DNA of 64,000 nt from a virus, in IMG/VR virus record IMGVR_UViG_3300005527_000052, positions 1 through 64,000 of that record; one strand, written 5' to 3'. A program made the translations under genes and the position numbers. The notes beneath the pieces are model-generated. The model was not told the origin of the DNA, searched no databases, and saw only the letters and a program-made list of their open reading frames with translations. Below, piece after piece: positions 51,812 to 63,929 of the stretch (positions within the stretch are counted from its first letter, which is position 1; each line of letters opens with the position of its first letter).

Positions 51812-51819
51812 GATATAAT
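51812..51819 (+). promoter_or_regulatory. Leaderless promoter
   Basis: GATATAAT, five bases, ATG at 51825. Confidence 0.75.
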
Positions 51820-51824
51820 AAAGC

Positions 51825-52109
51825 ATGGAACCGCAAGTTGACGACATTATCCGAATCGCGGATCGGCCAATTTCCGAAAAACTTCTTCCGGGCGATGATT
51901 TCTCGGATAGTGGTTATCCGGGTAGTCAATTCCGGATTCTTGCAAACGGAGGATTGGGTCCGATTATATCCGTGGCGGTCAATGTTAAGATAACCGGAAA
52001 AAAGACGGTTATGTATAACGGAGCCTGCTGGCTGCGTTGTCAAATTGAGTTTGTGGGGGATTGTGAACCCTCTACATTCTGTCACGGTTTCATTAAACAA
52101 CGATTCTAA
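51825..52109 (+). CDS. Hypothetical protein, leaderless
   Basis: 94 residues, beta-type (SQFRILANGGLGPIISVAVNVKITGKK). Start codon five bases after the -10 box, no SD. GC-richer codons. Unknown function. Confidence 0.65.
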   Translation: MEPQVDDIIRIADRPISEKLLPGDDFSDSGYPGSQFRILANGGLGPIISVAVNVKITGKKTVMYNGACWLRCQIEFVGDCEPSTFCHGFIKQRF

Positions 52110-52112
52110 TAG

Positions 52113-52120
52113 GATAGAAT
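52113..52120 (+). promoter_or_regulatory. Leaderless promoter, GATAGAAT variant
   Basis: GATAGAAT, four bases, ATG at 52125. Confidence 0.65.
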
Positions 52121-52124
52121 AAGT

Positions 52125-52469
52125 ATGGGATATTCTTATACCGTTAAGGCTGGACATTCCTACGATTACATGCTTTCAATCCTGCGGGCGAATGAGCCTT
52201 CCGATGGTCCGTGTAACCAATGGACGTACAAAGGGCAGAAGTATTTTGAGGAGTCTAGTCGCCGCGAACATGCAGACGGTAGGATTACGTCAACGGTATA
52301 CCGAACCGATGCTAATAATCTCTGCCAAAAGGTCGGCGGTATTCTGATTTCGGCGGATGGTACGGTAGTCCGTTGGCCGACAAGTTCTGCGGGGCTACGA
52401 AAAGCTGCTAAAGATTTCTCGGACGCTAAAACTCAACTTCATCTTCCTATGAAACGGTTTGTTGGTTAA
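52125..52469 (+). CDS. Hypothetical protein, leaderless
   Basis: 114 residues; YTVKAGHSYDYMLSILRANEPSDGPCNQWTYKGQKYFEESSRREHADGR, then strand-rich GGILISADGTVVRW. No SD. Unknown. Confidence 0.65.
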   Translation: MGYSYTVKAGHSYDYMLSILRANEPSDGPCNQWTYKGQKYFEESSRREHADGRITSTVYRTDANNLCQKVGGILISADGTVVRWPTSSAGLRKAAKDFSDAKTQLHLPMKRFVG

Positions 52470-52485
52470 GAACTTTCTTTGTAAG

Positions 52486-52656
52486 ATATAATAACGTAAT
52501 GGTGGTTTCAAGGTTTAGACCATAATCGGGGACGTAGCTGCTCTACCGACAAAAACCGAAAAAAGATAGGACACAATAGGGTTCGATTCCCGTGCTGGTA
52601 GCTGAGTGTTCTATAACTTTTCGGGTGCCGCGTTCCCTGCGGTGCCCGTTTTTTAT
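52486..52656 (+). ncRNA. Structured RNA candidate with T-arm-like hairpin
   Basis: GATATAAT at 52486-52493 and a strong terminator at 52622-52654 bracket about 155 bases without a credible ORF. Contains GGGTTCGATTCCC (tRNA T-arm-like) and CTACC/GGTAG closing pairs, but no D or anticodon arm, so not a tRNA. Probably an independently transcribed small RNA. Confidence 0.5.
52622..52654 (+). terminator. Intrinsic terminator
   Basis: CGGGTGCCGC-GTTCCCT-GCGGTGCCCG: ten pairs including two G-T, then TTTTTT. Confidence 0.85.
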
Positions 52657-52658
52657 TT

Positions 52659-52745
52659 AGTCCTCATTCTTACAAATTTTAAGCAATAATAGAAAATAGT
52701 TTTTCGTAGTCAGTGGATTAAATAATACGGGCGGCAAGATATAAT
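52659..52745 (+). repeat. Promoter module copy 2
   Basis: AGTCCTCATTCTTAC, TTTTAAGCAATAAT, AGTCAG, TTAAAT and GATATAAT 79 bases on; follows a terminator. Confidence 0.7.
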
Positions 52746-52761
52746 ATAGTGACTATGGCGT

Positions 52762-52769
52762 GATATAAT
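52762..52769 (+). promoter_or_regulatory. Second tandem GATATAAT box
   Basis: 17 bases after the first box of module 2; followed by a conserved AT-rich stretch (TTTAACTTATTTTGTAAAAT) and a third box at 52835. Confidence 0.5.
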
Positions 52770-52834
52770 CTATTTAACTTATTTTGTAAAATATATTTTT
52801 ATTGTTGCAATGAATTAAAAAGAAACCCCGTGAG

Positions 52835-52842
52835 GATATAAT
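52835..52842 (+). promoter_or_regulatory. Promoter with leader for the acidic gene
   Basis: GATATAAT preceded by CCCCGTGAGG; 33-base leader with AAAGG before ATG 52876. Confidence 0.65.
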
Positions 52843-52875
52843 AGAGAGTACCCAACCTCAACTCGAAAGGTTATC

Positions 52876-53046
52876 ATGGACGAATTTGATTGTACGGACG
52901 AAATTCAGTGTGAGGAATTTTACGATGATTCAACCCTTGATGATTGGGAGGACGATCGAGAGGATAGTTTTCCGGATTGGTCCGATGCTGAATTCGATGA
53001 AACCGATCCGCACGATGATTATGATCCGTCCGATGGTAACTTTTAG
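52876..53046 (+). CDS. Very acidic small protein, possible DNA mimic
   Basis: 56 residues, of which 18 Asp and 8 Glu against one Arg and no Lys. Phage DNA mimics such as Ocr inhibit restriction enzymes or host regulators. Charge pattern and early-array position fit this, but no homology is visible. SD AAAGG seven bases before ATG. Confidence 0.6.
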   Translation: MDEFDCTDEIQCEEFYDDSTLDDWEDDREDSFPDWSDAEFDETDPHDDYDPSDGNF

Positions 53047-53151
53047 TGTCGTCACTTAAATTGGTCCGGAATTGGGTAAGATAGAGAAAATATAGCTGAC
53101 ATAAGAAAACAGCCGAAGGCTCCTCTACGCCAATTTAAGTTCATTCCTTGG

Positions 53152-53180
53152 AAATCCCGGTGTATGCCGGGATTTTCGTT
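53152..53180 (+). terminator. Intrinsic terminator
   Basis: AAATCCCGG/CCGGGATTT nine-bp stem, then TTCGTTT. The 105 bases before it are non-coding and hold AGCCGAAGGCT. Confidence 0.65.
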
Positions 53181-53205
53181 TACTGATTAAATTTCTCAAT
53201 CGACG

Positions 53206-53213
53206 GATATAAT
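53206..53213 (+). promoter_or_regulatory. Leaderless promoter
   Basis: GATATAAT, five bases, ATG at 53219. Confidence 0.75.
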
Positions 53214-53218
53214 AAAGT

Positions 53219-53533
53219 ATGGAAAACTACGATGCTGTTCTGGCTGAATTCTTGATTGTTCATCAGAAAAAGATTGGCGATTACTACGCTGAACACTTTA
53301 AGAATTTGACGCCGGAAAATTTGGAAATTCGTAGCGGCAGCCGATATGATAGGATTGTGAGAGTTGGTAACGGTGCTGGAAACGGTTCAGCTTGGGCTTT
53401 TATCGACCGAACAAACGGCGATATTCTGAAGCCTGCTAGCTATAAGGCTCCCGCCAAACATGCCCGAGGAAACCTTTTTAACCGCGAATCTTGGGAAAAG
53501 ATTACCGCATACGGTCCTCCATATCTAAAGTAA
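53219..53533 (+). CDS. Conserved phage protein of unknown function
   Basis: 104 residues. GSAWAFIDRTNGDILKPASYKAPAKHARGNLFN matches a motif (GD..K.ASWKAPAK.ARGN.F) I recognise from many phage hypothetical proteins. Leaderless; followed by a terminator, so monocistronic. Confidence 0.75.
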   Translation: MENYDAVLAEFLIVHQKKIGDYYAEHFKNLTPENLEIRSGSRYDRIVRVGNGAGNGSAWAFIDRTNGDILKPASYKAPAKHARGNLFNRESWEKITAYGPPYLK

Positions 53534-53536
53534 TTT

Positions 53537-53558
53537 AAGGGGTTTAATCCCCTTTTTT
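53537..53558 (+). terminator. Intrinsic terminator
   Basis: AAGGGG-TTTAAT-CCCCTT followed by TTTT. Confidence 0.8.
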
Positions 53559-53621
53559 ATTTGCATAATCTAATCAAATATATTTTATCGTTCCAATGAA
53601 TTAAAAAATAACATACATAAG

Positions 53622-53629
53622 GATAGAAT
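53622..53629 (+). promoter_or_regulatory. Leaderless promoter, GATAGAAT variant
   Basis: GATAGAAT, five bases, ATG at 53635. Upstream CAATGAATTAAAAA is shared with the 52835 promoter. Confidence 0.7.
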
Positions 53630-53634
53630 ATAGC

Positions 53635-53871
53635 ATGTTTATTATCTTTCGCAAAGTTACTAGCGTTAAAGATCACTATTCTAGATCAATTAACGTTGGT
53701 CCCTGTAGTATCGAATTTAAGAAAATGATTTACACTGTCAAAGATAATAATTTGGCAGTCGGTATTTTTCCTGAAGAAACCGATCGTATGCCGATTATTG
53801 TTTTTAATCCAACTGTTGATTTTGAAATCTCAGAAACTTGTCCCGACGATATCGGTTTGGTTAATTTCTAG
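53635..53871 (+). CDS. Hypothetical protein, leaderless
   Basis: 78 residues, alternating strands (GPCSIEFKKMIYTVKDNNLAVGIFPEETDRMPIIVFNP) then an acidic tail. Possible distant member of the small beta family at 58002/60467. Confidence 0.62.
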   Translation: MFIIFRKVTSVKDHYSRSINVGPCSIEFKKMIYTVKDNNLAVGIFPEETDRMPIIVFNPTVDFEISETCPDDIGLVNF

Positions 53872-53880
53872 GCATCCAAG

Positions 53881-53888
53881 GATATAAT
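53881..53888 (+). promoter_or_regulatory. Leaderless promoter
   Basis: GATATAAT, five bases, ATG at 53894. Confidence 0.75.
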
Positions 53889-53893
53889 AGGAC

Positions 53894-54070
53894 ATGGAAA
53901 AGATCAAAACTCAAGAAGAAATTATCCAAGAAGGATATCAGGCTTTCGTGGATGCTTTGAATATTGATGATTGTCCGTATAAAACTAATGAAAATATGTC
54001 GGCTTGGAAAAAGGGTTATACCGAAGCCGAAAATGATTATTTCGATGCTTTGGACCAAGATTACGCTTAA
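53894..54070 (+). CDS. Ribosome modulation factor (RMF)-like protein
   Basis: 58 residues. EGYQAFVDALNIDDCPYK...SAWKKGYTEAEND aligns with the RMF core GYQAG....CPY...N.RS.W..GWREA. RMF binds 30S near the anti-SD end of 16S rRNA and promotes inactive 100S dimers. Here leaderless, between other one-gene units. Phage RMF-like proteins could reprogramme or spare ribosomes; the specific effect is unknown. More acidic than RMF, which is a caution. Confidence 0.72.
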   Translation: MEKIKTQEEIIQEGYQAFVDALNIDDCPYKTNENMSAWKKGYTEAENDYFDALDQDYA

Positions 54071-54085
54071 ATATGCCATAGGCAG

Positions 54086-54093
54086 GATATAAT
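54086..54093 (+). promoter_or_regulatory. Leaderless promoter with GCC-ATA-GGC repeat
   Basis: GCCATAGGC eight bases (centre) ahead of TATAAT; five bases then ATG 54099. Confidence 0.78.
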
Positions 54094-54098
54094 AGACT

Positions 54099-54314
54099 AT
54101 GCCAAAAGCACTTGAATTGAAGCCGGGAACGAAGTTTCGACTTAAGATGCCCGGTATTAGGGATGTTGTTTACATCCGCCCGGAAGTAGTTTCTGATGGT
54201 CCGGTATTGTGGGTGGATAATGGAAAACTTTACTGTTCTTGTATGGGCAACTTTCAGACATACTTTTCCGACAATCCCGAAGTGATTGTAACCGACGAAA
54301 AAATCACGATCTAG
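54099..54314 (+). CDS. Small beta protein, leaderless
   Basis: 71 residues (KPGTKFRLKMPGIRDVVYIRP..VLWVDNGKLYC...), order PGT-strand-NG resembling the 60467 family. Unknown. Confidence 0.62.
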   Translation: MPKALELKPGTKFRLKMPGIRDVVYIRPEVVSDGPVLWVDNGKLYCSCMGNFQTYFSDNPEVIVTDEKITI

Positions 54315-54523
54315 ACGATACAATAATGTAGTACCGGGTCTGCATCCTGAACAAAATAAAGGAAACCAAAACCCGACTGAATAGTTATTGGCGGTTTTCT
54401 CTGGTCCGCCGTTATATCACCAAAACCGGGAATCCATGTCTGCTCGGTATGAAAATACCGGGCGGATTTTAGACGGTCGCCCAATACGTCGTAAAAATCT
54501 ACCATCTAAGGATACAATAAACC
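54315..54523 (+). other. 209-base leader or small RNA region
   Basis: GATACAAT at 54317-54324 could start a short RNA. Contains CGGTATGAAAATACCG and a possible 44-codon frame from 54436 (MSARYENTGRIL...) overlapping the next gene, which I cannot decide on. Confidence 0.35.
54511..54518 (+). promoter_or_regulatory. Leaderless promoter, GATACAAT variant
   Basis: GATACAAT, five bases, ATG at 54524. Confidence 0.7.
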
Positions 54524-54796
54524 ATGCCAAAGAATCCCCAACCATCCGCAATTATTATCTACAAATCTAGTGAAGTGTTTGAGGATGCTCATTCTTCTGA
54601 TATGGACTTGGAGAATCCACACAACATTTTTGGTCAATTAAATAGGGACGGAGGATATAATTGGGGAGGGAATGATAAAACTCTTGTGGCTGTGCATTGG
54701 GTAGAAAATTACATTAACGCGAATGATCTTTCAACGAACGATCGGCAGCGTTTGCGTAGTTTGCCAGAATCGGCCTACATTGATCTTGAAAATTAG
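54524..54796 (+). CDS. Hypothetical protein, leaderless
   Basis: 90 residues; AIIIYKSSEVFEDAH then LNRDGGYNWGGNDKTLVAVHWVENYI. No family recognised. Confidence 0.62.
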   Translation: MPKNPQPSAIIIYKSSEVFEDAHSSDMDLENPHNIFGQLNRDGGYNWGGNDKTLVAVHWVENYINANDLSTNDRQRLRSLPESAYIDLEN

Positions 54797-54806
54797 CCTA
54801 CGGCAG

Positions 54807-54814
54807 GATATAAT
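54807..54814 (+). promoter_or_regulatory. Leaderless promoter with GCC-TAC-GGC repeat
   Basis: GCCTACGGC ahead of the box; five bases then ATG 54820. Confidence 0.75.
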
Positions 54815-54819
54815 AGATT

Positions 54820-54969
54820 ATGAAAGTTATTATCTATACATTCTTTGGTAAGGTTCTAAAGGAATTCCCCGTTCCTGATAATCAAACGCACCATGCAACA
54901 TTTGAGGAAGCTAGAGAGTGGGCACTTTCTAATTTAGATTTCAATAAGTGGTGGATTCGAGTAGACTGA
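54820..54969 (+). CDS. Small hypothetical protein, leaderless
   Basis: 49 residues (MKVIIYTFFGKVLKEFPVPDN...FEEAREWALSNLDFNKWWIRVD), a compact alpha/beta pattern. Unknown. Confidence 0.6.
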   Translation: MKVIIYTFFGKVLKEFPVPDNQTHHATFEEAREWALSNLDFNKWWIRVD

Positions 54970-54985
54970 GGGGCTTTAATTCCAA

Positions 54986-55071
54986 AGTCCTCATTTTTGC
55001 ATTTTTTAGCATAAATTAGTAATTACTTTTTGACAGTCGGCAACTTAAATAATTGCGGCGGCGGATATAAT
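54986..55071 (+). repeat. Promoter module copy 3
   Basis: AGTCCTCATTTTTGC ... CAGTCGG ... TTAAAT ... GATATAAT 78 bases on. The box is of the TGAC type (TTGACTG at 55075). Confidence 0.68.
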
Positions 55072-55095
55072 ATATTGACTGTTGTTGTAAAAAAC

Positions 55096-55122
55096 AAAGC
55101 AAAATAAAAAGCGTATCGCTAC
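55096..55122 (-). terminator. Terminator for the minus-strand microgene
   Basis: On the minus strand AAAGGCGTA-GCG-ATACGCTTTTTATTTT; a T-rich stretch also lies on the plus side, so it may work both ways. Confidence 0.65.
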
Positions 55123-55133
55123 GCCTTTGTTTT

Positions 55134-55301
55134 TTAAGTAACTTCTTTCACCGAGAGAACTTTAATCAAATTTGGATCACAACGCAACATAAAGAAAATT
55201 TGATAAAAAGCACGCTTGCTGAATAATTCGGCATTACTAGACATTCCCTCCACATCGTAAACTTTGCGGCCTTTTTGAACTTGTGCGATGAATTTCTTCA
55301 T
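55134..55301 (-). CDS. Minus-strand leaderless small protein
   Basis: 55 residues (MKKFIAQVQKGRKVYDVEGMSSNAELF...). ATG is five bases after minus-strand TATAAT (55307-55314). Downstream stem-loop gives its own terminator. Opposes the surrounding plus-strand array. The composition VYDVEGMSSNAELFSKRAFYQIFFML is protein-like. Confidence 0.68.
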   Translation of the reverse strand: MKKFIAQVQKGRKVYDVEGMSSNAELFSKRAFYQIFFMLRCDPNLIKVLSVKEVT

Positions 55302-55306
55302 ACGCG

Positions 55307-55314
55307 ATTATATC
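55307..55314 (-). promoter_or_regulatory. Leaderless promoter on the minus strand
   Basis: GATATAAT inside a palindrome GCGAT-ATA-ATCGC; five bases then ATG 55301. Confidence 0.72.
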
Positions 55315-55381
55315 GCAAGCAATCGGTAATTTTATTAGACTGTCTTTTCTTTCCTATTGAATAAAACTGTGCCGTAGGCAC

Positions 55382-55389
55382 GATATAAT
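55382..55389 (+). promoter_or_regulatory. Leaderless promoter with GTGCC-GTA-GGCAC repeat
   Basis: Five-bp arms, the longest perfect spacer repeat; five bases after the box comes ATG 55395. Confidence 0.78.
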
Positions 55390-55394
55390 GATCT

Positions 55395-55733
55395 ATGAAA
55401 GAAACCTTCACTATCGAACGAAATGGTTTCCGAATCACTGGCGAAATTAAGCCCGCTCGGAATAGTTATATTCGCACCCATGTAACGATTCTTGATGATC
55501 GTTATGGAAACAATTCAAATTCGGCGTGGGCGGATGCCTGCGATGAAGTTTACAAGATTTACGGTGCAAGTGTAACCGAAGATAACACTGTCGGTCAAAT
55601 TGTGCAAACGTCCGGTAATGCCAATCAATACGCTAATACTCCTGTTCGTGGTCGATCATTCCAAATGTCGTGTAACCTGTGGGGAAAGAAGGTACGCGAA
55701 TTGCATAAGCGTATCACCGATGCTATCAAGTGA
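55395..55733 (+). CDS. Hypothetical protein, leaderless
   Basis: 112 residues; ETFTIERNGFRITGEIKPA, DDRYGNNSNSAWADACDEVYKIYG, basic C-terminal helix. Monocistronic with terminator. Confidence 0.65.
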   Translation: MKETFTIERNGFRITGEIKPARNSYIRTHVTILDDRYGNNSNSAWADACDEVYKIYGASVTEDNTVGQIVQTSGNANQYANTPVRGRSFQMSCNLWGKKVRELHKRITDAIK

Positions 55734-55816: not shown

Positions 55817-55840
55817 GCGGGATAATTTTCCCGCTTTTCT
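55817..55840 (+). terminator. GCGGGA/TCCCGC hairpin with plus-side T run
   Basis: Six-bp stem followed by TTTTCTTAT on the plus strand; also lies just behind the minus-strand zinc microgene. Confidence 0.55.
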
Positions 55841-55941
55841 TATCGCTTAACGTGGCCTTTTCCGTTACAATGTTTACAAGTTTGAACGCCGTGAGGATAA
55901 TAATACTTTCGTCCAATACCTTTGCAATGTTGGCATTTCAT
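55840..55941 (-). CDS. Minus-strand zinc-knuckle microprotein, leaderless
   Basis: 33 residues: CQHCKGIGRKYYYPHGVQTCKHCNGKGH, a minimal paired CxxCxGxG zinc unit as in DnaJ and in the proteins at 46471 and 49283. ATG is five bases after minus-strand TATAAT (55947-55954). Confidence 0.68.
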   Translation of the reverse strand: MKCQHCKGIGRKYYYPHGVQTCKHCNGKGHVKR

Positions 55942-55946
55942 GGATG

Positions 55947-55954
55947 ATTATATC
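55947..55954 (-). promoter_or_regulatory. Leaderless promoter on the minus strand
   Basis: GATATAAT in the palindrome GATGAT-ATA-ATCATC; five bases then ATG 55941. Confidence 0.72.
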
Positions 55955-56006: not shown

Positions 56007-56014
56007 GATATAAT
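56007..56014 (+). promoter_or_regulatory. GATATAAT promoter, TGAC type
   Basis: GCCGGTAGGC directly upstream; ATATGACTAGC follows. A second box lies 72 bases on. Confidence 0.6.
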
Positions 56015-56078: not shown

Positions 56079-56086
56079 GATAGAAT
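56079..56086 (+). promoter_or_regulatory. Leaderless promoter, GATAGAAT variant
   Basis: GATAGAAT, four bases, ATG at 56091. Confidence 0.65.
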
Positions 56087-56090
56087 AGGC

Positions 56091-56306
56091 ATGAACGAAA
56101 AGATTAACACCAAAAACGATGGCGACTTGGGATATTTAGCGTTCTATACTAAAAAGGGAAAACGAGGCGAAGTTTGGGCAAAAACATCGGCGGATGCTCA
56201 AAAAATTGCGGCGGCTTTTTGGAAGGTTAAAAAGTCCTACGAAGTTAGTGTCTATCTTTGTGTGCGATCTGAGGGATCGGAAGTCGTCCATACGTCGGTG
56301 GATTAA
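56091..56306 (+). CDS. Hypothetical protein, leaderless
   Basis: 71 residues (GDLGYLAFYTKKGKRGEVWAKTSADAQKIAAAFWKVKKSYEVSVYL), beta-alpha-beta, basic. Unknown. Confidence 0.62.
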   Translation: MNEKINTKNDGDLGYLAFYTKKGKRGEVWAKTSADAQKIAAAFWKVKKSYEVSVYLCVRSEGSEVVHTSVD

Positions 56307-56377: not shown

Positions 56378-56385
56378 GATATAAT
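56378..56385 (+). promoter_or_regulatory. Promoter with short leader
   Basis: GATATAAT then a 26-base leader with AAGGAA before ATG 56412. Confidence 0.6.
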
Positions 56386-56411
56386 GTTGTGTAACCACAA
56401 GGAATTAACCG

Positions 56412-56591
56412 ATGCGAATTGATCCCGACGAATTTTTTAATGTTCTTTCTCGTTATATTGAAGAAGTTGCAAAGGATAAGATTCGAGATAAATTTAATGA
56501 GAATCACGGATATAGTAACTACGGCACCCGCGACAACCTTCATGAATCTGAAAGAGAATTGAAGGCTATGATTGAAAATATGATGCGTTAA
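56412..56591 (+). CDS. Small hypothetical protein
   Basis: 59 residues (MRIDPDEFFNVLSRYIEEVAKDKIRDKF...), helical and acidic, SD AAGGAA. Ends two bases before the promoter of the group I-like RNA, so it might be a 5' exon neighbour. Confidence 0.6.
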   Translation: MRIDPDEFFNVLSRYIEEVAKDKIRDKFNENHGYSNYGTRDNLHESERELKAMIENMMR

Positions 56592-56592: not shown

Positions 56593-56600
56593 GATAGAAT
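56593..56600 (+). promoter_or_regulatory. Promoter of the group I-like RNA
   Basis: GATAGAAT followed by CGGCACTGCCG; starts transcription at about 56606. Confidence 0.5.
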
Positions 56601-56601
56601 C

Positions 56602-56915
56602 GGCACTGCCGATTTGTTGTAGGGTTTACCCTACCGTCAATACTGAGGCTGTTACCCGACGTTAAACGTAACCAGCCTTCCTTTCGGCGGACGCTGAATA
56701 AAGGATAGACTAATCCTTGATAAAATAAAAAGTAGCCTATGGCATGTCGAAAGATTGCCAACGGCTTTAACAATATAGTCTAGAAAACCGTTAAGGGTTA
56801 GTATAGGCTACCGATTGGTGCCTCTTAACAGGCTCGCTAAAATAACCAAAAGGGACCGTTATTCTCCGGTTAGGGCTTTGACCCAACAGCCAAGAGAAAT
56901 CTTGGATAATCGGAA
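56602..56915 (+). ncRNA. Group I intron-like catalytic RNA core
   Basis: Ordered elements: P2-like GTAGGG/CCCTAC (56619-56634), P3 GTCAA/TTGAT (56636-56640 with 56717-56721), P4 GAGGCT/AGCCTT (56645-56650 with 56674-56679), P5 GTTAC/GTAAC, P6, P7 AGACTA/TAGTCT (56707-56712 with 56776-56781), P8 with GAAA loop (56741-56759), P9 GTTAAG/CTTAAC (56790-56829), and CCAAGA-GAAA-TCTTGG. Matches the P, Q, R, S conserved order. No endonuclease ORF; exon borders unresolved. Confidence 0.65.
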
Positions 56916-56931
56916 ATAACACTATTTCTAT

Positions 56932-57008: not shown

Positions 57009-57016
57009 GATATAAT
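57009..57016 (+). promoter_or_regulatory. Leaderless promoter with CCC-ATA-GGG repeat
   Basis: CCCATAGGG upstream; five bases after the box comes GTG 57022. Confidence 0.7.
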
Positions 57017-57021
57017 ACATT

Positions 57022-57204
57022 GTGAAACACCTAGACAAACTTATTCAAGAATACGGCACGGATGGTATTTCTTACCTTCTTGAATCCGTTATCCATAAAA
57101 TTCCCGATGAGGATAAAAACAAAAACGGTTGGGAAAAAGAATTAAAAAAGGTGTCGGATGATCTTAAACTCTCACTAAAGGAATACCGTGAGTCACAAGG
57201 TTAA
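57022..57204 (+). CDS. Small acidic protein, leaderless GTG start
   Basis: 60 residues (KHLDKLIQEYGTDGISYLLESVIHKIPDEDKNKNGWEKELKK...). GTG exactly where other genes have ATG. Overlaps the next gene by 17 bases. Confidence 0.6.
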   Translation: MKHLDKLIQEYGTDGISYLLESVIHKIPDEDKNKNGWEKELKKVSDDLKLSLKEYRESQG

Positions 57205-57427
57205 ATTTTACGCAATTGATAGCGGCGAACCTTCGGCGGGCATCCTTCCTTCTTTCGAGGAAATCGAAATTAATTTTGTCCATAGTGGTCCTATGGATTT
57301 TGAGAAGGAAGATTTGGAAAACATCGCTAGTTTTTTTAGCGATTTCTACAATGGTGCCCGAATTTTGTCGGAAAAGCAATATAATGATATGATCGAAGCG
57401 GAAAATAATTTGCCCGAGTTGGATTAA
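57188..57427 (+). CDS. Acidic hypothetical protein
   Basis: 79 residues, GTG start with AAAGGA upstream inside the previous gene, so translationally coupled. Acidic (FEKEDLENIASFFSDF; EAENNLPELD). Confidence 0.58.
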   Translation: MSHKVKFYAIDSGEPSAGILPSFEEIEINFVHSGPMDFEKEDLENIASFFSDFYNGARILSEKQYNDMIEAENNLPELD

Positions 57428-57442: not shown

Positions 57443-57450
57443 GATATAAT
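57443..57450 (+). promoter_or_regulatory. Leaderless promoter with CGCC-ATA-GGCG repeat
   Basis: Four-bp arms; five bases after the box comes ATG 57456. Confidence 0.78.
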
Positions 57451-57455
57451 AGAGT

Positions 57456-57686
57456 ATGAACATCGAAATCGTCCCGATTATCCGAAAGCTTAACGAATGC
57501 CGATATGGAGATATTGTAAAGTTTGTGCCTTCAGATGGTAAAACTCATACTTGTTTGGTAATGTATCAAGGCATGGTATCTTTTAATGATCCCGAATCTA
57601 CTTGGACTTATTCTTCGCAAGGCGAAGAAAATATAGTCGGAAATTATGAAGTCGAATTGGTCGGACAACTTAAACTTTCATCGTAA
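57456..57686 (+). CDS. Small beta protein, leaderless
   Basis: 76 residues; RYGDIVKFVPSDGKTHTCLVMYQGMVSFND and NYEVELVGQLKLSS suggest a small barrel like other array proteins. Confidence 0.62.
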   Translation: MNIEIVPIIRKLNECRYGDIVKFVPSDGKTHTCLVMYQGMVSFNDPESTWTYSSQGEENIVGNYEVELVGQLKLSS

Positions 57687-58326: not shown

Positions 58327-58334
58327 GATATAAT
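58327..58334 (+). promoter_or_regulatory. Leaderless promoter with CGCC-GTA-GGCG repeat
   Basis: TTTAAA about 17 bases before TATAAT; five bases then ATG 58340. Confidence 0.8.
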
Positions 58335-58339
58335 ATCTT

Positions 58340-58621
58340 ATGATTATCCAAGACAGCCGAACGCCGGAAGAAAAGAAAAACACCATCGGTTATGTTGTGG
58401 GAACGGATAAATTTTTGTCGGGTTGGGGATCAGCCCGAGGAGGATCATCGTTTTTTGCAGTCTCTATCACGAATCACGAGCATTTAGATAGCGTTATGAA
58501 AAAGATGAATAATCATAGCGATTTTAAAAACGTTCGATTTAATTTGCGTTCGTGGCGTCCAAAGGGTGAAGGACACACTCACATTGTTGGACCAACTAAA
58601 TCAAATTGCTGGTACAAGTGA
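58340..58621 (+). CDS. Hypothetical protein, leaderless
   Basis: 93 residues; TIGYVVGTDKFLSGWGSARGGSSFFAVSI, later NVRFNLRSWRPKGEGHTHIVGP. Its stop TGA overlaps the next GATATAAT by two bases. Confidence 0.65.
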   Translation: MIIQDSRTPEEKKNTIGYVVGTDKFLSGWGSARGGSSFFAVSITNHEHLDSVMKKMNNHSDFKNVRFNLRSWRPKGEGHTHIVGPTKSNCWYK

Positions 58622-58627
58622 TATAAT
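58620..58627 (+). promoter_or_regulatory. Leaderless promoter overlapping a stop codon
   Basis: GATATAAT, five bases, ATG 58633; TGA of the upstream gene is at 58619-58621. Confidence 0.75.
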
Positions 58628-58632
58628 AGCCT

Positions 58633-59070
58633 ATGGCATATAAGAATAAATCTTTGATTGCAGCCTGTCTACTTTTTATTCCATCGCTCGGTGCGGGAAC
58701 CGCTGGCTTCGATTGGGATAGATTCCTTGCGGCTTTGCAAAAAGTTGAATCCGGCGGGGTAAAAAATCCCGATACTGCTGTAGGCGATAACGGAAAGGCT
58801 TTAGGTCGCTATCAATTGCACCAAAACTACGTTTTGGATGCAAAGGCATACGACGGGACTTTGGTAGGCTCTTATAGGGATATAGCTACCCATCCGGTAG
58901 ACTCAGGTAGGGCAGTGACAGCCTATCTAACACGGTACGGACGTGCCGATATTGAGGCGGGAAATATCGAGAATCTAGCTAAAAAGCACAATGGAGGACC
59001 GACCGGCCATAAGAAAAAGGCAACAGAAAAGTATTGGAAGAAGTTTAAAAGCATCTATGATGCGATATAA
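58633..59070 (+). CDS. Secreted lysozyme/transglycosylase-like enzyme
   Basis: 145 residues. N-terminal signal or SAR-type segment (KNKSLIAACLLFIPSLGAG), then FLAALQKVESGG (Glu39 as likely acid), VGDNGKALGRYQLHQNY and LAKKHNGGPTG, the lysozyme-like/SLT fold signature. Probably cleaves peptidoglycan outside the membrane. Its stop TAA lies inside the next -10 box. Confidence 0.78.
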   Translation: MAYKNKSLIAACLLFIPSLGAGTAGFDWDRFLAALQKVESGGVKNPDTAVGDNGKALGRYQLHQNYVLDAKAYDGTLVGSYRDIATHPVDSGRAVTAYLTRYGRADIEAGNIENLAKKHNGGPTGHKKKATEKYWKKFKSIYDAI

Positions 59071-59071
59071 T
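59064..59071 (+). promoter_or_regulatory. Leaderless promoter containing a stop codon
   Basis: GCGATATAAT includes the upstream TAA; five bases then ATG 59077. Confidence 0.73.
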
Positions 59072-59076
59072 CAGTT

Positions 59077-59241
59077 ATGAAAAAGATCGATCACGAAAAT
59101 GATGACAAACTTTTTCTGAAAAATTCCACGGATCGGAGAATCCATTGGACAAATTGTTATCCGAAGCGTGGGCAGAGATATAAGAAGGTTGGTTGGGCTT
59201 TTGAGTGGCGGAATAACGGAATTCGCCGACCGAATAATTAA
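59077..59241 (+). CDS. Small basic protein, leaderless
   Basis: 54 residues, C-terminus basic and Trp-rich (RGQRYKKVGWAFEWRNNGIRRPNN). Ends one base before the tRNA-like sequence, so the two share a transcript. Confidence 0.62.
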   Translation: MKKIDHENDDKLFLKNSTDRRIHWTNCYPKRGQRYKKVGWAFEWRNNGIRRPNN

Positions 59242-59242: not shown

Positions 59243-59315
59243 GTTTGCTGTCGTCTAATGGTCGGACGCCGTAGCGGAACCTACGGAAATGTAAGTTCGA
59301 ATCTTACCGGCAACA
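59243..59315 (+). tRNA. tRNA-like sequence with aberrant anticodon loop
   Basis: T arm GTAAG/CTTAC with TTCGAAT and D arm GTC/GAC are canonical. The acceptor pairs with a bulged T (GTTTGCTG/CGGCAAC). Anticodon stem CCGTA/TACGG encloses eight bases GCGGAACC with no T33; G and C at the ends could pair to leave six. No amino acid assigned; may be a pseudo-tRNA or tRNA mimic. Confidence 0.5.
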
Positions 59316-59785: not shown

Positions 59786-59793
59786 GATATAAT
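59786..59793 (+). promoter_or_regulatory. Promoter of the 340-base RNA, CCC-GTA-GGG repeat
   Basis: CCCCGTAGGGATATAAT then AGGGTG, the form seen at leadered promoters. Confidence 0.7.
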
Positions 59794-59798
59794 AGGGT

Positions 59799-60139
59799 GT
59801 AAGCGGTTGTGCTAGCCAATTGACTTACTAGCGTGCGGCGGCTTCGATCACGACGTAACGCGAATCCATGTATCGAATAGTGGTCTTTCGTCGATGTTTA
59901 CCACGATAAAAAATAATCCGAGAGTGAAAGAGTTGGAGAACTCTGACCGTACTCTGACGTAAAGTTAAACTCATGCCGCAACGTAGCAACGGCTAAAAAT
60001 AAGGGCGACGGCTTAGGGATTAGTGTAGGCTCCTAAGTTTGTATTGATAATCCGATCTAATCAATCGGGCGATAAGATTGTGTGATTAACAATTTTATAA
60101 CGCACTTGGACAGCACTCCCCGAGGGTGCTGTCTGTTTT
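59799..60139 (+). ncRNA. Structured non-coding RNA of about 340 bases
   Basis: Strong promoter and terminator, no ORF over a few codons. Hairpins: GCTAG/CTAGC, GTGG/CCAC, AGAGT/ACTCT enclosing GAGTT-GGAG-AACTC, GCCG/CGGC, CTTAGG/CCTAAG and CCGAT/ATCGG. Lacks tmRNA, RNase P and group I hallmarks, so an unassigned RNA. Possible regulator or ribozyme; GGAG is displayed in a loop and may bind 16S rRNA. Confidence 0.6.
60109..60139 (+). terminator. Strong intrinsic terminator
   Basis: GACAGCAC/GTGCTGTC eight-bp stem, then TGTTTTT. Confidence 0.85.
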
Positions 60140-60142
60140 TAT

Positions 60143-60243
60143 AGTCCTCATTTTACCGCGTTTATTTAAGCAATAATTATAAATAAATTTCGATCAGTCA
60201 AAAAGAATAAAGTGAATTAAATACGCCGTAGGCAAGATATAAT
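60143..60243 (+). repeat. Promoter module copy 4
   Basis: AGTCCTCATTTTACC, TTTAAGCAATAAT, CAGTCA and, 93 bases on, GCCGTAGGC plus GATATAAT. Confidence 0.7.
60236..60243 (+). promoter_or_regulatory. Leaderless promoter with GCC-GTA-GGC repeat
   Basis: Five bases after the box comes ATG 60249. Confidence 0.8.
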
Positions 60244-60248
60244 ATCTT

Positions 60249-60455
60249 ATGTACCATTATTATGAACCCCGATTTTCTGTCGATCAACTTCATAATATGT
60301 ATAAAGAAACGGGTGAAAAGTTCGTAGGATTTATTCATACTCAAAACAGTAATAAAGAAACTGTCAAGGTTTCTGATTTAATTACTGAAATTCGCCGTAT
60401 GTATAAAGAGATTGCCGTTTATAAGGAAAGAGATCAAAAAACTGCCGTAGGCTGA
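60249..60455 (+). CDS. Hypothetical helical protein, leaderless
   Basis: 68 residues; VDQLHNMYKETGEKFVGFIHT, VSDLITEIRRMYKEIAVYKER. The last codons (TAVG, stop) encode the next promoter's GCCGTAGGC and overlap GATATAAT. Confidence 0.62.
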   Translation: MYHYYEPRFSVDQLHNMYKETGEKFVGFIHTQNSNKETVKVSDLITEIRRMYKEIAVYKERDQKTAVG

Positions 60456-60461
60456 TATAAT
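60454..60461 (+). promoter_or_regulatory. Leaderless promoter embedded in an upstream gene end
   Basis: GCCGTAGGC lies in coding sequence, TGA overlaps the box; five bases then ATG 60467. Confidence 0.78.
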
Positions 60462-60466
60462 ACATT

Positions 60467-60700
60467 ATGAAAATCACATTTACCAAAAATCCTAAGAATA
60501 TTCCCATTCGCCATTTGGAGCCGGGCACTATTATTAAAGTGAATTGCGGTGCGGTTTATATTGTGCCAGAAGAGAGTTATATGTTTGCTCTAATTCTAGA
60601 AAACGGATGTATTGTCGGCACCGTTTATAATATGGAAAATTTCCTATTCATTGACGATCGTGATTACGAAATTCTTGGTAAAGTTTCGGTAGTGATGTGA
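60467..60700 (+). CDS. Small beta protein, array family
   Basis: 77 residues. EPGTIIKVNCGAVYIVPEE...LENGCIVGTVYNMENFLFIDDRDYEILGKV matches the C-terminal half of the 63170 protein (PGTMIQVN...FIVP...YRIVGK). Stop TGA overlaps the next box. Confidence 0.68.
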   Translation: MKITFTKNPKNIPIRHLEPGTIIKVNCGAVYIVPEESYMFALILENGCIVGTVYNMENFLFIDDRDYEILGKVSVVM

Positions 60701-60706
60701 TATAAT
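60699..60706 (+). promoter_or_regulatory. Promoter of the tRNA-Lys unit
   Basis: GATATAAT overlapping the upstream TGA; about 15 bases of leader before the tRNA. Confidence 0.65.
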
Positions 60707-60727
60707 TGCTATCGCAAATAAAATAGA

Positions 60728-60800
60728 GCGTCTGTAACTCAGTTGGCAGAGTAGAGGACTTTTAATCCTTTTGTCGTAGGTTCGATCCCTACCAGACGCA
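60728..60800 (+). tRNA. tRNA-Lys (TTT)
   Basis: Acceptor GCGTCTG/CAGACGC, D stem ACTC/GAGT, anticodon stem GAGGA/TCCTT with loop CTTTTAA, T loop TTCGATC. ATG follows after two bases. Confidence 0.9.
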
Positions 60801-60802
60801 TT

Positions 60803-61051
60803 ATGATTAAAATTAACAGACCGAGACTTCGTATGTTTGTTCCTTTTGATGAAGCAATTGGCAGAGATGCTTACGTTTTTCTAGAGTGTGAAAAATATCC
60901 TTCCAATGTTTATCTCTGGAATGCAGGTAATCGAATTTTAATTGAATTTGGACACGGCGTTGCTGCTATGAACGAAATTCAGTCTATTCCTTATCGTGAA
61001 TTAAATTACCGAAAAATTGAGCGTCCAGAAATTGTTATCAATTGTAAGTAA
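60803..61051 (+). CDS. Small beta protein starting at a tRNA end
   Basis: 82 residues. DAYVFLECEKYPSNVYLWNAGNRILIEFGHG...YRELNYRK.ERPEIVINC fits the array family. ATG two bases after tRNA-Lys, no separate SD. Confidence 0.65.
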   Translation: MIKINRPRLRMFVPFDEAIGRDAYVFLECEKYPSNVYLWNAGNRILIEFGHGVAAMNEIQSIPYRELNYRKIERPEIVINCK

Positions 61052-61135
61052 TTTTGCGTAGCAAAAATCTATGTTGTCGGTTAAAAGATTTAAAGAGACG
61101 GATATCTAGAAAAGCAATTTTGTAGGCTGGAGCAT

Positions 61136-61171
61136 CCTGCTAGTAGAAATACTGGCGGGATTTTATTTTTT
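61136..61171 (+). terminator. Terminator with GAAA tetraloop
   Basis: CCTGCTAGTA-GAAA-TACTGGCGGG (ten pairs, three G-T) then ATTTTATTTTTT. Confidence 0.8.
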
Positions 61172-61199
61172 GATCTTTCTTAATTACTACCGTAGGCTC

Positions 61200-61207
61200 G
61201 ATATGAT
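61200..61207 (+). promoter_or_regulatory. GATATGAT promoter, TGAC type
   Basis: ACCGTAGGCTC upstream; ATAGTGACTG follows. Confidence 0.55.
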
Positions 61208-61210
61208 ATA

Positions 61211-61414
61211 GTGACTGTTACTTTTAAAAAAAGTAACACAAAAAAGAAAACGGATATTTTACTATCCGTTTCTGCCTATACTCCATATGTATACCGTCCT
61301 TATAGGCTTAAGGGATATACCGACTTTAATTTTAATTCGCAGTCGAGCGAATACCGAGCCGATTTTACTCTCCCGGTGCGAAGTATATTATATCTTGCCA
61401 CAAACGAATTTTAA
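61211..61414 (+). CDS. Possible small basic protein, GTG start
   Basis: 67 codons from GTG three bases after the -10 box (MTVTFKKSN...), with Tyr/Arg-rich centre. It extends a TGAC-type frame that is only five codons at 56943, so it may be real or chance. Confidence 0.4.
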   Translation: MTVTFKKSNTKKKTDILLSVSAYTPYVYRPYRLKGYTDFNFNSQSSEYRADFTLPVRSILYLATNEF

Positions 61415-61468
61415 CCAATCACCAAATTTTATTCCGCACATTATCTAATTAAATTTTCACCCCGTAGG

Positions 61469-61476
61469 GATATAAT
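61469..61476 (+). promoter_or_regulatory. Leaderless promoter with CCC-GTA-GGG repeat
   Basis: CCCCGTAGGGATATAAT, six bases, ATG 61483. Confidence 0.72.
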
Positions 61477-61482
61477 AGATCA

Positions 61483-61734
61483 ATGCAAGAGATTAAAAAA
61501 GTTCTAGACTACGAAAATTCTTTGAAAACCGGCGATAAAGTTATTGTAAAATGGACGAATAGTTTTAATATCTATTCGGCACCAGCTATTGTTTCTAAGA
61601 TTAATTCTAAAAGTTTTAGAGTTAAACTGACTGGTGGAATTAAGGGACTTTACCCTGTTGGGCAAGAATTTCCTGTTCCTCGATTTTTGGGTTCTGGTTG
61701 GTCGGATAACAATAGGGTGTTTCCTCTAGGTTAG
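61483..61734 (+). CDS. SH3/KOW-like small protein, leaderless
   Basis: 83 residues; KTGDKVIVKWTNSF..YSAPAIVSKINSKSFRVKLTGG reads as a small beta barrel of SH3/KOW type. Ligand unknown. Confidence 0.62.
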   Translation: MQEIKKVLDYENSLKTGDKVIVKWTNSFNIYSAPAIVSKINSKSFRVKLTGGIKGLYPVGQEFPVPRFLGSGWSDNNRVFPLG

Positions 61735-61781
61735 AAAGATTCGCAAAAAAGTTTCAAACGTTAAAAAGACAACGAAGGCTG

Positions 61782-61869
61782 GATAGAATAGGGTGTGGCG
61801 AGCGACGATAAGGGTGTTCCGAATCCTAGCCGCCGAAATGGGGAATGTTTCCCCGAAAGGATTTGAGTT
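61782..61869 (+). promoter_or_regulatory. Promoter and leader with possible coupling ORF
   Basis: GATAGAAT (61782-61789), AGGGT, then GTG at 61795 opening 23 codons that end three bases before the next ATG. GGGGAA/TTTCCC hairpin and AAAGGA precede ATG 61870. Confidence 0.5.
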
Positions 61870-62181
61870 ATGCGTATTGTTGAGAATTTTCCGTCGATCG
61901 TTCGTGCAGGTGCAGGTGGCAAGGGCCGTGTTGCTGGTCCGGTAACGCAGGGGCTTCGTACCCTTCAGCCGGGTCAGACCGCTCAGTTTGTTCTTGGGGA
62001 GTCGCCGTTTGATAACGTCTCGGATTTTGAGACTATGGCCGCTAAGGTTCGTCAGGCTGCGAATGTTAAGAATCTCGGATTCCCGGTGGCTACTCGCGTG
62101 ATCGCATCGGAGCAGTCGGTGTATGTTCGGCGAAAGCTGGATAACGAAGTTCCCGATCTCGCGGTCGTCCCCGCTCGGTAA
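61870..62181 (+). CDS. Hypothetical protein, GC-rich codons
   Basis: 103 residues, Ala/Val/Gly-rich (IVRAGAGGKGRVAGPVTQGLRTLQPGQTAQFVLGES; VATRVIASEQSVYVRRKLDNEV). Clearly GC-richer than neighbours, like the 50039-52469 genes, suggesting high expression or different origin. Confidence 0.65.
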   Translation: MRIVENFPSIVRAGAGGKGRVAGPVTQGLRTLQPGQTAQFVLGESPFDNVSDFETMAAKVRQAANVKNLGFPVATRVIASEQSVYVRRKLDNEVPDLAVVPAR

Positions 62182-62208
62182 AAATACCGAACGTCACACT
62201 CAATAATT

Positions 62209-62238
62209 CCCGGTAGAAATATCGGGATTTTATTTTAT
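62209..62238 (+). terminator. Terminator with GAAA tetraloop
   Basis: CCCGGTA-GAAA-TATCGGG then ATTTTATTTTAT. A second hairpin TCGGTA-AAAA-TACCGA lies at 62175-62190. Confidence 0.72.
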
Positions 62239-62251
62239 CTACGGAGTAAAC

Positions 62252-62626
62252 ATGGCGACAAGAATTGTTTATCGTGTAGAAAACAAGAAAACTGGTAAAG
62301 GTCCGTATACTTGGATGCATAAAGATAGTTCAGAATGTTTTGTAAAACCTAGCGATCATACTAAAACTATTTTTGGTACTACGTCACTTAAAAATATTAT
62401 TTATTGGATCGATGAGCATATGAGGGAAGAAACAACTCTAAAAGGTTGTCATGTTGCTGCCTATCGCGTAAAACGTGCTAAAATGCTGCTGCAACCTCGA
62501 TTGAAGTTGCCGCGAAAAGAATATGAAAAAATTTCTCGATATGAATTTCGGGAATGTGTTTTCGATATTTCTGCGGCGGAAAAAATCAGCGGAATGTCAT
62601 TTAAAAAAGCACGACAATTAGCTTAA
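62252..62626 (+). CDS. Hypothetical protein
   Basis: 124 residues, basic (GPYTWMHKDSSECF; VKRAKMLLQPRLKLPRKEYEK). SD GGAG. Transcribed past the preceding terminator or from an unseen promoter; terminator follows. Confidence 0.62.
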   Translation: MATRIVYRVENKKTGKGPYTWMHKDSSECFVKPSDHTKTIFGTTSLKNIIYWIDEHMREETTLKGCHVAAYRVKRAKMLLQPRLKLPRKEYEKISRYEFRECVFDISAAEKISGMSFKKARQLA

Positions 62627-62633
62627 AAAATTT

Positions 62634-62656
62634 ACCCGGTATCATCCGGGTTTTAT
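62634..62656 (+). terminator. Intrinsic terminator
   Basis: ACCCGG-TATCAT-CCGGGT followed by TTTATC. Confidence 0.7.
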
Positions 62657-62678
62657 CATTTGTTAATCATTATTCTAA

Positions 62679-62767
62679 AGTCCTCATTTTAGCAAAATTT
62701 AAGCAATAATTAGAAACAAAAAATAAATAGTCGGCAGTCTAAAAAATTACCACAAATAGGATATAAT
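62679..62767 (+). repeat. Promoter module copy 5
   Basis: AGTCCTCATTTTAGC, TTTAAGCAATAAT, TAGTCGG and GATATAAT 81 bases on; follows a terminator. Confidence 0.72.
62760..62767 (+). promoter_or_regulatory. Leaderless promoter
   Basis: GATATAAT, five bases, ATG 62773. Confidence 0.77.
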
Positions 62768-62772
62768 ATCAC

Positions 62773-63018
62773 ATGAAATATACCGTTAAGAGTAATCGTT
62801 GTAAAGGTTGGACTCGTGATCAGCTTGTTAGCGGTCTTTATGTCGCCAAGCTAAATAGTAATCGTAGTTTGGCTGAGCATCTTGTTATGTATAGCGGAGG
62901 TAAATTTGCTATTTACAATTCTGTAAGTTCACAAATCGATACTATCGGCGGAACAACTTTTAACGAGGACTATCGTTTCTTTCCTGTTGTGTCTTTGAAT
63001 GTTGAAATTGAGGAGTAA
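62773..63018 (+). CDS. Small beta protein, array family
   Basis: 81 residues. SGLYVAKLN..LAEHLVMYSGGKFAIYN...DYRFFPVVSLNVEI parallels 58002 and 59336. Monocistronic. Confidence 0.67.
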   Translation: MKYTVKSNRCKGWTRDQLVSGLYVAKLNSNRSLAEHLVMYSGGKFAIYNSVSSQIDTIGGTTFNEDYRFFPVVSLNVEIEE

Positions 63019-63025
63019 TTTAGAT

Positions 63026-63052
63026 AATCGCCTACCGGCGATTTTTTTTGTT
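63026..63052 (+). terminator. Intrinsic terminator
   Basis: AATCGCC-TACC-GGCGATT followed by TTTTTTG. Confidence 0.82.
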
Positions 63053-63079
63053 TTTCAATTAAAATATGTCGCGTAACAT

Positions 63080-63087
63080 GATATAAT
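63080..63087 (+). promoter_or_regulatory. GATATAAT promoter, TGAC type
   Basis: ATAATGACGACG follows, a seven-codon frame; second box 77 bases on. Confidence 0.57.
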
Positions 63088-63156
63088 ATAATGACGACGC
63101 CTATTATAAAATAATAAAAATTATTTTTTACCGTTGATTAAAAACACCGTAGGTAC

Positions 63157-63164
63157 GATATAAT
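63157..63164 (+). promoter_or_regulatory. Leaderless promoter with ACC-GTA-GGT repeat
   Basis: ATTAAA about 17 bases before TATAAT; five bases then ATG 63170. Confidence 0.8.
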
Positions 63165-63169
63165 AAGAT

Positions 63170-63670
63170 ATGAACCAACTCTCTATTAATATTTATCCAG
63201 CTCCATCGGTCCAGCCGGTTTATGAGTCTCTTGATTATACTAGTAAGCGTGGTATTTATAAAATTGAGGGTGATGCTGAATATCCTTATTATGTTTTTCT
63301 AGGTAACTCTACTTATCATGTCGCACAGCGTAATAATCTGCACCATTCTCAGAATATGGAAGGTCTGAATAAGGGAGGTTTTAAATATACCTTTATTACC
63401 GATGAATATTCGGTGAAGGATAATAAAATCTCGTTTGAGATTCCCCAAAGTAAACCGCTAAATTTGAAAGATAATCCCCCAAGTCCGGGAACGATGATTC
63501 AGGTAAACATAAGTGGTGATTACAATACTGATATTTTTATTGTTCCTAATTTTAAAACCGACCATCCTGCAGTAGTTCGTGGTAATAGAATTGTTTATTC
63601 TGTTTGTACGTTCGAAGAGTGGATGAGTGCAGCATATGAATATCGAATTGTTGGTAAAAATTCCAATTAA
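63170..63670 (+). CDS. Two-domain small beta protein, leaderless
   Basis: 166 residues. The C-terminal half (about 107-165) aligns with the 60467 protein; the N-terminal half (RGIYKIEGDAEYPYYVFLGN...) has the same strand pattern, so it looks like a tandem duplication or fusion. Confidence 0.68.
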   Translation: MNQLSINIYPAPSVQPVYESLDYTSKRGIYKIEGDAEYPYYVFLGNSTYHVAQRNNLHHSQNMEGLNKGGFKYTFITDEYSVKDNKISFEIPQSKPLNLKDNPPSPGTMIQVNISGDYNTDIFIVPNFKTDHPAVVRGNRIVYSVCTFEEWMSAAYEYRIVGKNSN

Positions 63671-63673
63671 TTA

Positions 63674-63681
63674 GATATAAT
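63674..63681 (+). promoter_or_regulatory. Leaderless promoter
   Basis: GATATAAT, five bases, ATG 63687; no inverted repeat here. Confidence 0.73.
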
Positions 63682-63686
63682 ACTAC

Positions 63687-63929
63687 ATGGAAATTAACCC
63701 TGTAGATTATCAAGAACATATTGATATTGGTTATGATGTTATTTCGTGGCATATTGCCGCGTATAATGATAATCCAGAATCTATCGCTAGGCCGGGTAAA
63801 ATTACCGGTCTAGTTGATATGCTGATGGATACTTTGTCGGACGGTGTAGAAAATCGTAATGATGTTCGTCAGTATTTTATTGAAATGTTTACAAATCGCC
63901 TAAAGGAACGCGGATATATTTTTGTTTAA
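63687..63929 (+). CDS. Hypothetical protein, leaderless
   Basis: 80 residues, helical (ITGLVDMLMDTLSDGVENRNDVRQYFIEMFTNRLKERG). Unknown. Confidence 0.63.
   Translation: MEINPVDYQEHIDIGYDVISWHIAAYNDNPESIARPGKITGLVDMLMDTLSDGVENRNDVRQYFIEMFTNRLKERGYIFV

Follow-up and report, generated by a model that had tools for sequence, protein, structure and literature searches.

Does a −10 box joined to the start codon of one small gene after another mark the point at which transcription begins, so that the messenger RNAs (mRNAs) of these genes lack a leader? The question is raised by the right-hand part of the window, by which we mean bases 1-64000 of the 83,386-bp virus record IMGVR_UViG_3300005527_000052, where an earlier note had described genes with the motif GATATAAT, or a close variant, five bases before the start codon. 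We identified a 28-kb stretch of small genes, more than 20 of which are each preceded by a separate, near-identical promoter that ends exactly five bases ahead of the start codon. It is very probable, in our view, that this is an array of mostly single-gene leaderless units in an uncultured tailed phage, each with one near-invariant promoter of the housekeeping-sigma type.

All 20 genes listed in that note (18 on the plus strand, two on the minus) have GATATAAT or a variant, exactly five bases (N5) and a start codon, which is ATG everywhere except for a single GTG at 57022. They share the pattern GATA[T/G/C]AAT, with GATAGAAT at 53622 and GATACAAT at 54511 as the variants, and they open reading frames (ORFs) of 33-166 codons each. 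Three further genes that had been mentioned with four or six bases were located at 52125 and 56091 (four) and at 61483 (six). N5 sites run past the window edge to ~74.5 kb, and promoter-like sites of all kinds to 79 kb of the record. Counting against shuffled sequence, a check that the note had proposed, revealed 29 GATANAAT-N5-RTG sites (27 plus, two minus) in 51-80 kb of the record, compared with a mean of 0.35 and a maximum of 3 in 300 dinucleotide shuffles; the reversed pattern gave 0 sites, and the left 51 kb has 0 where shuffles predict 0.51. The histogram of motif-to-ATG spacings is consistent with this preference (N3 5, N4 3, N5 27, N6 3, N7 0, N8 0).

These counts bear on whether the arrangement arose by chance, from AT-rich sequence and compact short genes, or by duplication of a promoter-gene unit. 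Chance is refuted by the shuffles and by the left arm, which is equally AT-rich yet has no N5 sites, leaving a sharply bounded block. The array includes four small paralogs, two promoter-fused and two not, which would fit duplication, but all-against-all BLAST found this single family at the threshold used, nearly all other array proteins being mutually unrelated, and homology between units was limited to the promoter and short intergenic repeats. Because these four proteins alone form a paralog family, the block does not consist of copies of one gene, and we regard either origin as extremely improbable.

The block contains 67 GATA[TGC]AAT sites, 38 of which have no N5 start codon, so that the motif does precede start codons, as first described, and is not restricted to them. 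Many of the 38 are promoters of transfer RNAs (tRNAs), non-coding RNAs (ncRNAs) or leadered genes, and a few intragenic sites are probably due to chance. An N5-GTG at 61782 opens just 23 codons, and this site probably leads the gene at 61870, which bears a Shine-Dalgarno (SD) sequence.

To what kind of signal does the motif belong? Both boxes of a promoter are present, as TTAAAA-N16-TATAAT, and the GA before TATAAT is invariant, preceding every TATAAT-N5-RTG in the block. When all 51 exact matches to GATATAAT in the block are taken together, similarity to TTAAAA peaks sharply at −20, and AA is found at −17/−16 in 43 (~6 expected); in the aligned fused sites, positions −20 to −15 before GATATAAT are T16 T19 A19 A29 A27 A23 of 29. 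Because the TTAAAA box and the GA lie at fixed distances, the motif is part of a two-box promoter and not an isolated −10-like word. The layout is of the sigma-70 type, with −35 and −10 boxes and a spacer within 16-18 bp, and at 29 sites the −10 hexamer is spaced such that the predicted +1 falls on the start codon. Such a promoter might be read by a phage-encoded or phage-modified polymerase or sigma factor, in which case the array would form one coordinated temporal class, set apart from transcription of the host type. While the near-invariant GATATAAT and unusual TTAAAA −35 box, more uniform than normal host promoters, and the sharp bounds of the block are consistent with this possibility, the −10/−35 layout and the spacer resemble those of housekeeping-sigma promoters, and the protein scan, in which most proteins were either not included or had no match, turned up neither a sigma factor nor an RNA polymerase. 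We judge a phage-specific polymerase to be fairly unlikely and favor initiation at each promoter by a housekeeping-type holoenzyme, with recognition presumably by the main sigma factor of the host.

The predicted site of initiation is indicated by the bases around +1. A pyrimidine stands before the start codon in 28 of the 29 fused genes, compared with 19 of 36 non-fused starts (Fisher p 6e-5). As controls we used 26 non-fused promoters that have the −35 dinucleotide and lie ahead of tRNAs, ncRNAs or SD-led genes. Eighteen of them have a pyrimidine/purine (Y/R) step at base 5/6 after TATAAT against a background of 24% (p 1e-6), while other spacings in the same promoters give 1-11 such steps. 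Furthermore, the predicted +1 lies 4 nt ahead of tRNA-Ile, 4 nt ahead of tRNA-Arg and 6 nt ahead of tRNA-Leu, and transcription therefore cannot begin more than these few bases beyond it. Genes with N6 have an A directly before the ATG, retaining a purine +1, and genes with N4 have pyrimidine-A at the ATG. Because promoters of tRNAs, non-coding transcripts and leadered genes show the same Y/R step, the spacing of five bases reflects where the promoter itself sets the start: the constancy is a property of the promoter, and leaderless genes put their ATG on its +1. Since their ATG lies at the predicted +1, the fused protein genes are most likely leaderless, and the initial suggestion that a −10 box fused to the start predicts leaderless mRNA is well supported by the sequence, from the rigid −35/−10 arrangement to the −1 pyrimidine and the geometry at tRNAs and non-coding units.

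Consistent with leaderless translation, SD-like matches precede only 28% of fused genes, compared with 50% of structural genes, 54% of the array genes that have no fused promoter and 11-12% in shuffles. Eight of the 29 fused sites do have an AGGA; it stands at the motif or inside it, upstream of the predicted mRNA, such that the fused genes would have no SD-bearing leader. Several array genes retain an SD leader, and the two predicted translation modes, leaderless and SD-led, coexist in the phage. The AGGA matches would also suit a different explanation, in which GATATAAT is a translation-level start-associated sequence (SAS), as in cluster K mycobacteriophages (PMC3203893), that the ribosome or some phage factor would recognise in the RNA. 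Like the cluster K SAS, it is a repeated motif a few bases before starts, at fixed distance, and stays within the genome's non-structural half. However, the SAS has an SD core, AGGAG, that pairs with 16S rRNA and has no −35 partner, whereas GATATAAT lacks such a core, is a −10 box coupled to TTAAAA at a fixed distance and also lies ahead of tRNAs and ncRNAs that have no start codon; moreover, SD-led genes of the phage mostly lack it. We consider an SAS-type role very unlikely. In a relative contig, L046 (RNA ligase 86% identical), the same promoter and geometry, GATATAATactgt/ATAAAGGAGC..ATG, is found before an SD-led DUF932 gene.

In the promoter-based reading that we prefer, each unit would start with TTAAAA, a 16-bp spacer ending in GA, TATAAT, A-N3-Y and a purine at +1, and RNA polymerase would begin at the sixth base past TATAAT. 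In a protein gene the ATG would occupy +1, giving a leaderless mRNA that may be translated from its 5'-terminal AUG, while a tRNA, ncRNA or SD-bearing gene would use the same +1 with a short or ordinary leader. A small accessory gene might thereby carry a complete start signal and need neither a ribosome-binding site (RBS) nor an operon partner. Several points weigh against this scheme. Eight of the 26 control promoters have no Y/R step. Position 6 after TATAAT is in the usual start range but falls one base closer than the most common start, and a start one or two bases later would cut the AUG. Searches for relatives yielded none that carries the array, and the terminase, DUF932, RNA ligase and lysozyme matches point to no consistent host.

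The phage has ~50 near-identical promoters, about half of them fused to start codons. The description of the block as one-gene units largely holds, with 52 plus-strand promoter-like sites at a median spacing of 372 bp, and fails for some units of two genes, tRNAs or ncRNAs. Packing is such that several promoters overlap the preceding stop: those at 58620, 60454 and 60699 read TGATATAAT, in which TGA is the stop or directly abuts it. Terminator-like hairpins, 14 compared with the 52 promoter-like sites, close about a dozen units, and ~12 of the 14 lie within 350 bp upstream of a promoter. The units and neighboring features are listed in Table 1.

Table 1. Features of the array in the window. 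Leaderless units are predictions; a slash precedes the predicted +1; aa, amino acids.
Feature	Position	Strand	Details
GATATAAT-N5-ATG leaderless unit	51812..52109	+	94-aa ORF 51825-52109
GATAGAAT-N4-ATG unit	52113..52469	+	114-aa ORF 52125-52469
GATATAAT-N5-ATG leaderless unit	53206..53533	+	104-aa ORF; terminator hairpin next at 53537
GATAGAAT-N5-ATG leaderless unit	53622..53871	+	78-aa ORF
GATATAAT-N5-ATG leaderless unit	53881..54070	+	58-aa ORF
GATATAAT-N5-ATG leaderless unit	54086..54314	+	71-aa ORF
GATACAAT-N5-ATG leaderless unit	54511..54796	+	90-aa ORF
GATATAAT-N5-ATG leaderless unit	54807..54969	+	49-aa ORF
GATATAAT-N5-ATG leaderless unit	55134..55314	-	55-aa ORF, start 55301
GATATAAT-N5-ATG leaderless unit	55382..55733	+	112-aa ORF and terminator hairpin
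GATATAAT-N5-ATG leaderless unit	55840..55954	-	33-aa protein, two CxxCxGxG motifs, start 55941
GATAGAAT-N4-ATG unit	56079..56306	+	71-aa ORF 56091-56306
GATATAAT-N5-GTG leaderless unit	57009..57204	+	60-aa ORF 57022-57204, overlaps ORF 57188-57427
GATATAAT-N5-ATG leaderless unit	57443..57686	+	76-aa ORF
GATATAAT-N5-ATG leaderless unit	58327..58621	+	93-aa ORF; TGA stop is start of next promoter (TGATATAAT)
GATATAAT-N5-ATG leaderless unit	58620..59070	+	145-aa destabilase/i-type lysozyme-like protein
GATATAAT-N5-ATG leaderless unit	59064..59241	+	54-aa ORF; promoter includes TAA of lysozyme-like gene
GATATAAT-N5-ATG leaderless unit	60236..60455	+	68-aa ORF
GATATAAT-N5-ATG leaderless unit	60454..60700	+	77-aa ORF, 4-member paralog family
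GATATAAT-N6-ATG unit	61469..61734	+	83-aa ORF 61483-61734; predicted +1 is A before ATG
GATATAAT-N5-ATG leaderless unit	62760..63018	+	81-aa ORF
GATATAAT-N5-ATG leaderless unit	63157..63670	+	166-aa ORF
GATATAAT-N5-ATG leaderless unit	63674..63929	+	80-aa ORF; array goes on past window in same record
Leadered control unit	52835..53046	+	same promoter; ATG with AAAGG SD lies 28 nt past predicted +1; ORF 52876-53046
Leadered control unit	56378..56591	+	GATATAATgttgt/GTAACC..AAGGAATTAACCG-ATG; ORF 56412-56591
Leadered control unit	61782..62181	+	GATAGAATagggt/G...; SD gene 61870-62181
Promoter-like site, then tRNA-Lys(TTT)	60699..60800	+	predicted geometry weak, leader ~16 nt
Second ('RTGAC') promoter class, GATATAAT-N4-Y/GAC	51716..51730	+	no fused ORF
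'RTGAC' class, other copies	52738, 55064, 56932, 59689, 61200, 63080; 55810	+; - for 55810
Promoter (GATAGAAT) and structured ncRNA candidate	56593..56931	+	~330 nt
Promoter and ncRNA candidate	59786..60140	+	~340 nt; ends in terminator hairpin (60109)
Repeated element AGTCCTCATT..TTTAAGCAATAAT	52659..52690	+	~80-95 bp upstream of array promoters
Repeated element, other copies	51635, 54986, 60143, 62679		54986 diverged in second half

The second promoter class, GATATAATATARTGAC, has its predicted +1 at the G of GAC, is often followed by a short hairpin and in most cases has another of the array's promoters 72-97 bp downstream; a site at 56007 resembles it and is one base off. Long ORF-free intergenic stretches, promoter-preceded or structured, are found at 56593-56931, 59786-60140 and 70630-70865 of the record. 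Some of these stretches exceed shuffled sequence in stability (z −4.4 for 56601-56931), and they are possibly large ncRNAs, although no Rfam family matched the ncRNA candidates. A further transcript candidate at 52493-52660 combines a strong terminator hairpin with a sequence like the T-arm of a tRNA (GGGTTCGATTCCC) and was not called as a tRNA or tmRNA. At 59244-59315, immediately downstream of the predicted leaderless ORF 59077-59241, Rfam identifies a tRNA-like gene (37.5 bits) that ARAGORN did not report. The intergenic element in its full form, AGTCCTCATT(T/C)T-N..TTTAAGCAATAAT-..-AGTC, occurs in five copies right after the preceding gene or terminator and nowhere else in the genome except for a partial copy at 65182; it is possibly an activator site or a recombination joint.

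The array proteins are mostly of 33-166 aa without a recognised family, family-like exceptions being the destabilase-like lysozyme and the 33-aa protein with a double CxxCxGxG (55840-55941, minus strand), whose two motifs resemble half of a DnaJ zinc finger. Members of the paralog family (60467-60700 and 65910-67180 of the record) are of ~80 aa with a PPGTIVKF...IVG-I-I-I pattern.

Searches with the terminase, capsid and RNA ligase found small contigs of close relatives only, none with the array, and the lysozyme-like and HD-like array proteins gave no relatives. The upstream repeat AGTCCTCATT..AGCAATAAT, tried as a relative-finder, gave one match, due to chance. Among 2.9 million IMG/VR contigs, 32 have one match each to the strict promoter pattern and no other contig has more than one, compared with five in this genome; megablast against known phages gave no match. 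The terminase weakly resembles those of Microcystis phage MaeS and Bacillus phages, the DUF932 protein those of actinophages, the RNA ligase those of proteobacterial and metagenomic phages, and the lysozyme those of Cellulophaga phages. Matches to the GDP-mannose dehydratase include candidate-phylum genomes. A sample of that phylum carries the same GATATAATNNNNYATG signal sparsely; in the ten genomes picked for high counts, a biased choice, it gives 46 sites vs 3-4 for the reversed pattern. One such genome has a TATAAT-ATG peak at N5 (16 vs 4-5 at many other spacings) and, unlike the phage, no SD excess. We take this signal as a lead and not as a host assignment.

Each component of the array is known biology, and it is their dense uniform packing in a phage that is unusual. 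Leaderless genes recognised by a −10-like signal close to their start have been described across bacteria (PMC3160421), in M. tuberculosis (PMC3898074) and experimentally in Deinococcus (PMC12340547). The genes of Actinobacteria and Deinococcus-Thermus share with the phage a TATAAT/TANNNT a few bases before the ATG, a purine +1 at or near the start and the presence of SD-led genes; there, however, the hexamer is degenerate and no −35 consensus was found in M. tuberculosis, whereas in the phage the two boxes and the GA hardly vary and the units lie side by side. Thermus phage phiYS40 also expresses many genes via leaderless mRNAs, its middle and late mRNAs being mostly of this type (review PMC3594737). 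In the 50 kb of phiYS40 that we checked, a −10-like hexamer is at N6 in 9 of 58 genes and at N5 in 1; the hexamer is thus mostly six bases off, several clear cases have a TTGAC −35 box, and identical promoters are not packed into a dense array. Three promoters are predicted to start at the start codon in cluster O mycobacteriophages (Corndog; PMC4351075), compared with more than 20 here, and their SigA consensus differs. T4-like phages have dozens of early, host-type promoters before small novel ORFs and tRNAs (PMC1524935), alternating with stem-loops as in the promoter-stem-loop (PeSL) cassettes (PMC4503421), but their −35 box is GTTTAC, and the stem-loop per promoter that defines a PeSL is not seen in this array. 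We found no phage array joining dense one-gene promoters with leaderless fusion in the literature covered, which lacked most subscription papers.

Of the terms used in the earlier note, 'early' expression is a guess, and 'modular cassette' likewise goes beyond what the sequence shows. Tentatively, and as an idea that may well be wrong, we suggest a plug-in start module, in which a ~40-bp near-invariant sequence would supply −35, −10, +1 and start codon, so that an acquired small ORF, tRNA or ncRNA would be expressed at once, regardless of host RBS rules, and the block would be a rapidly exchanging gene bank that one sigma factor reads in a single temporal class. Reports of leaderless expression in phages usually concern individual genes. 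This genome offers ~30 natural replicates of one promoter together with tRNA, ncRNA and SD-led controls in the same genome, so that a single system would allow direct tests of both start-site choice and leaderless translation. It also provides an annotation rule for this phage group, a start codon five bases past GATATAAT, and a promoter signature that could help find the host of the phage.

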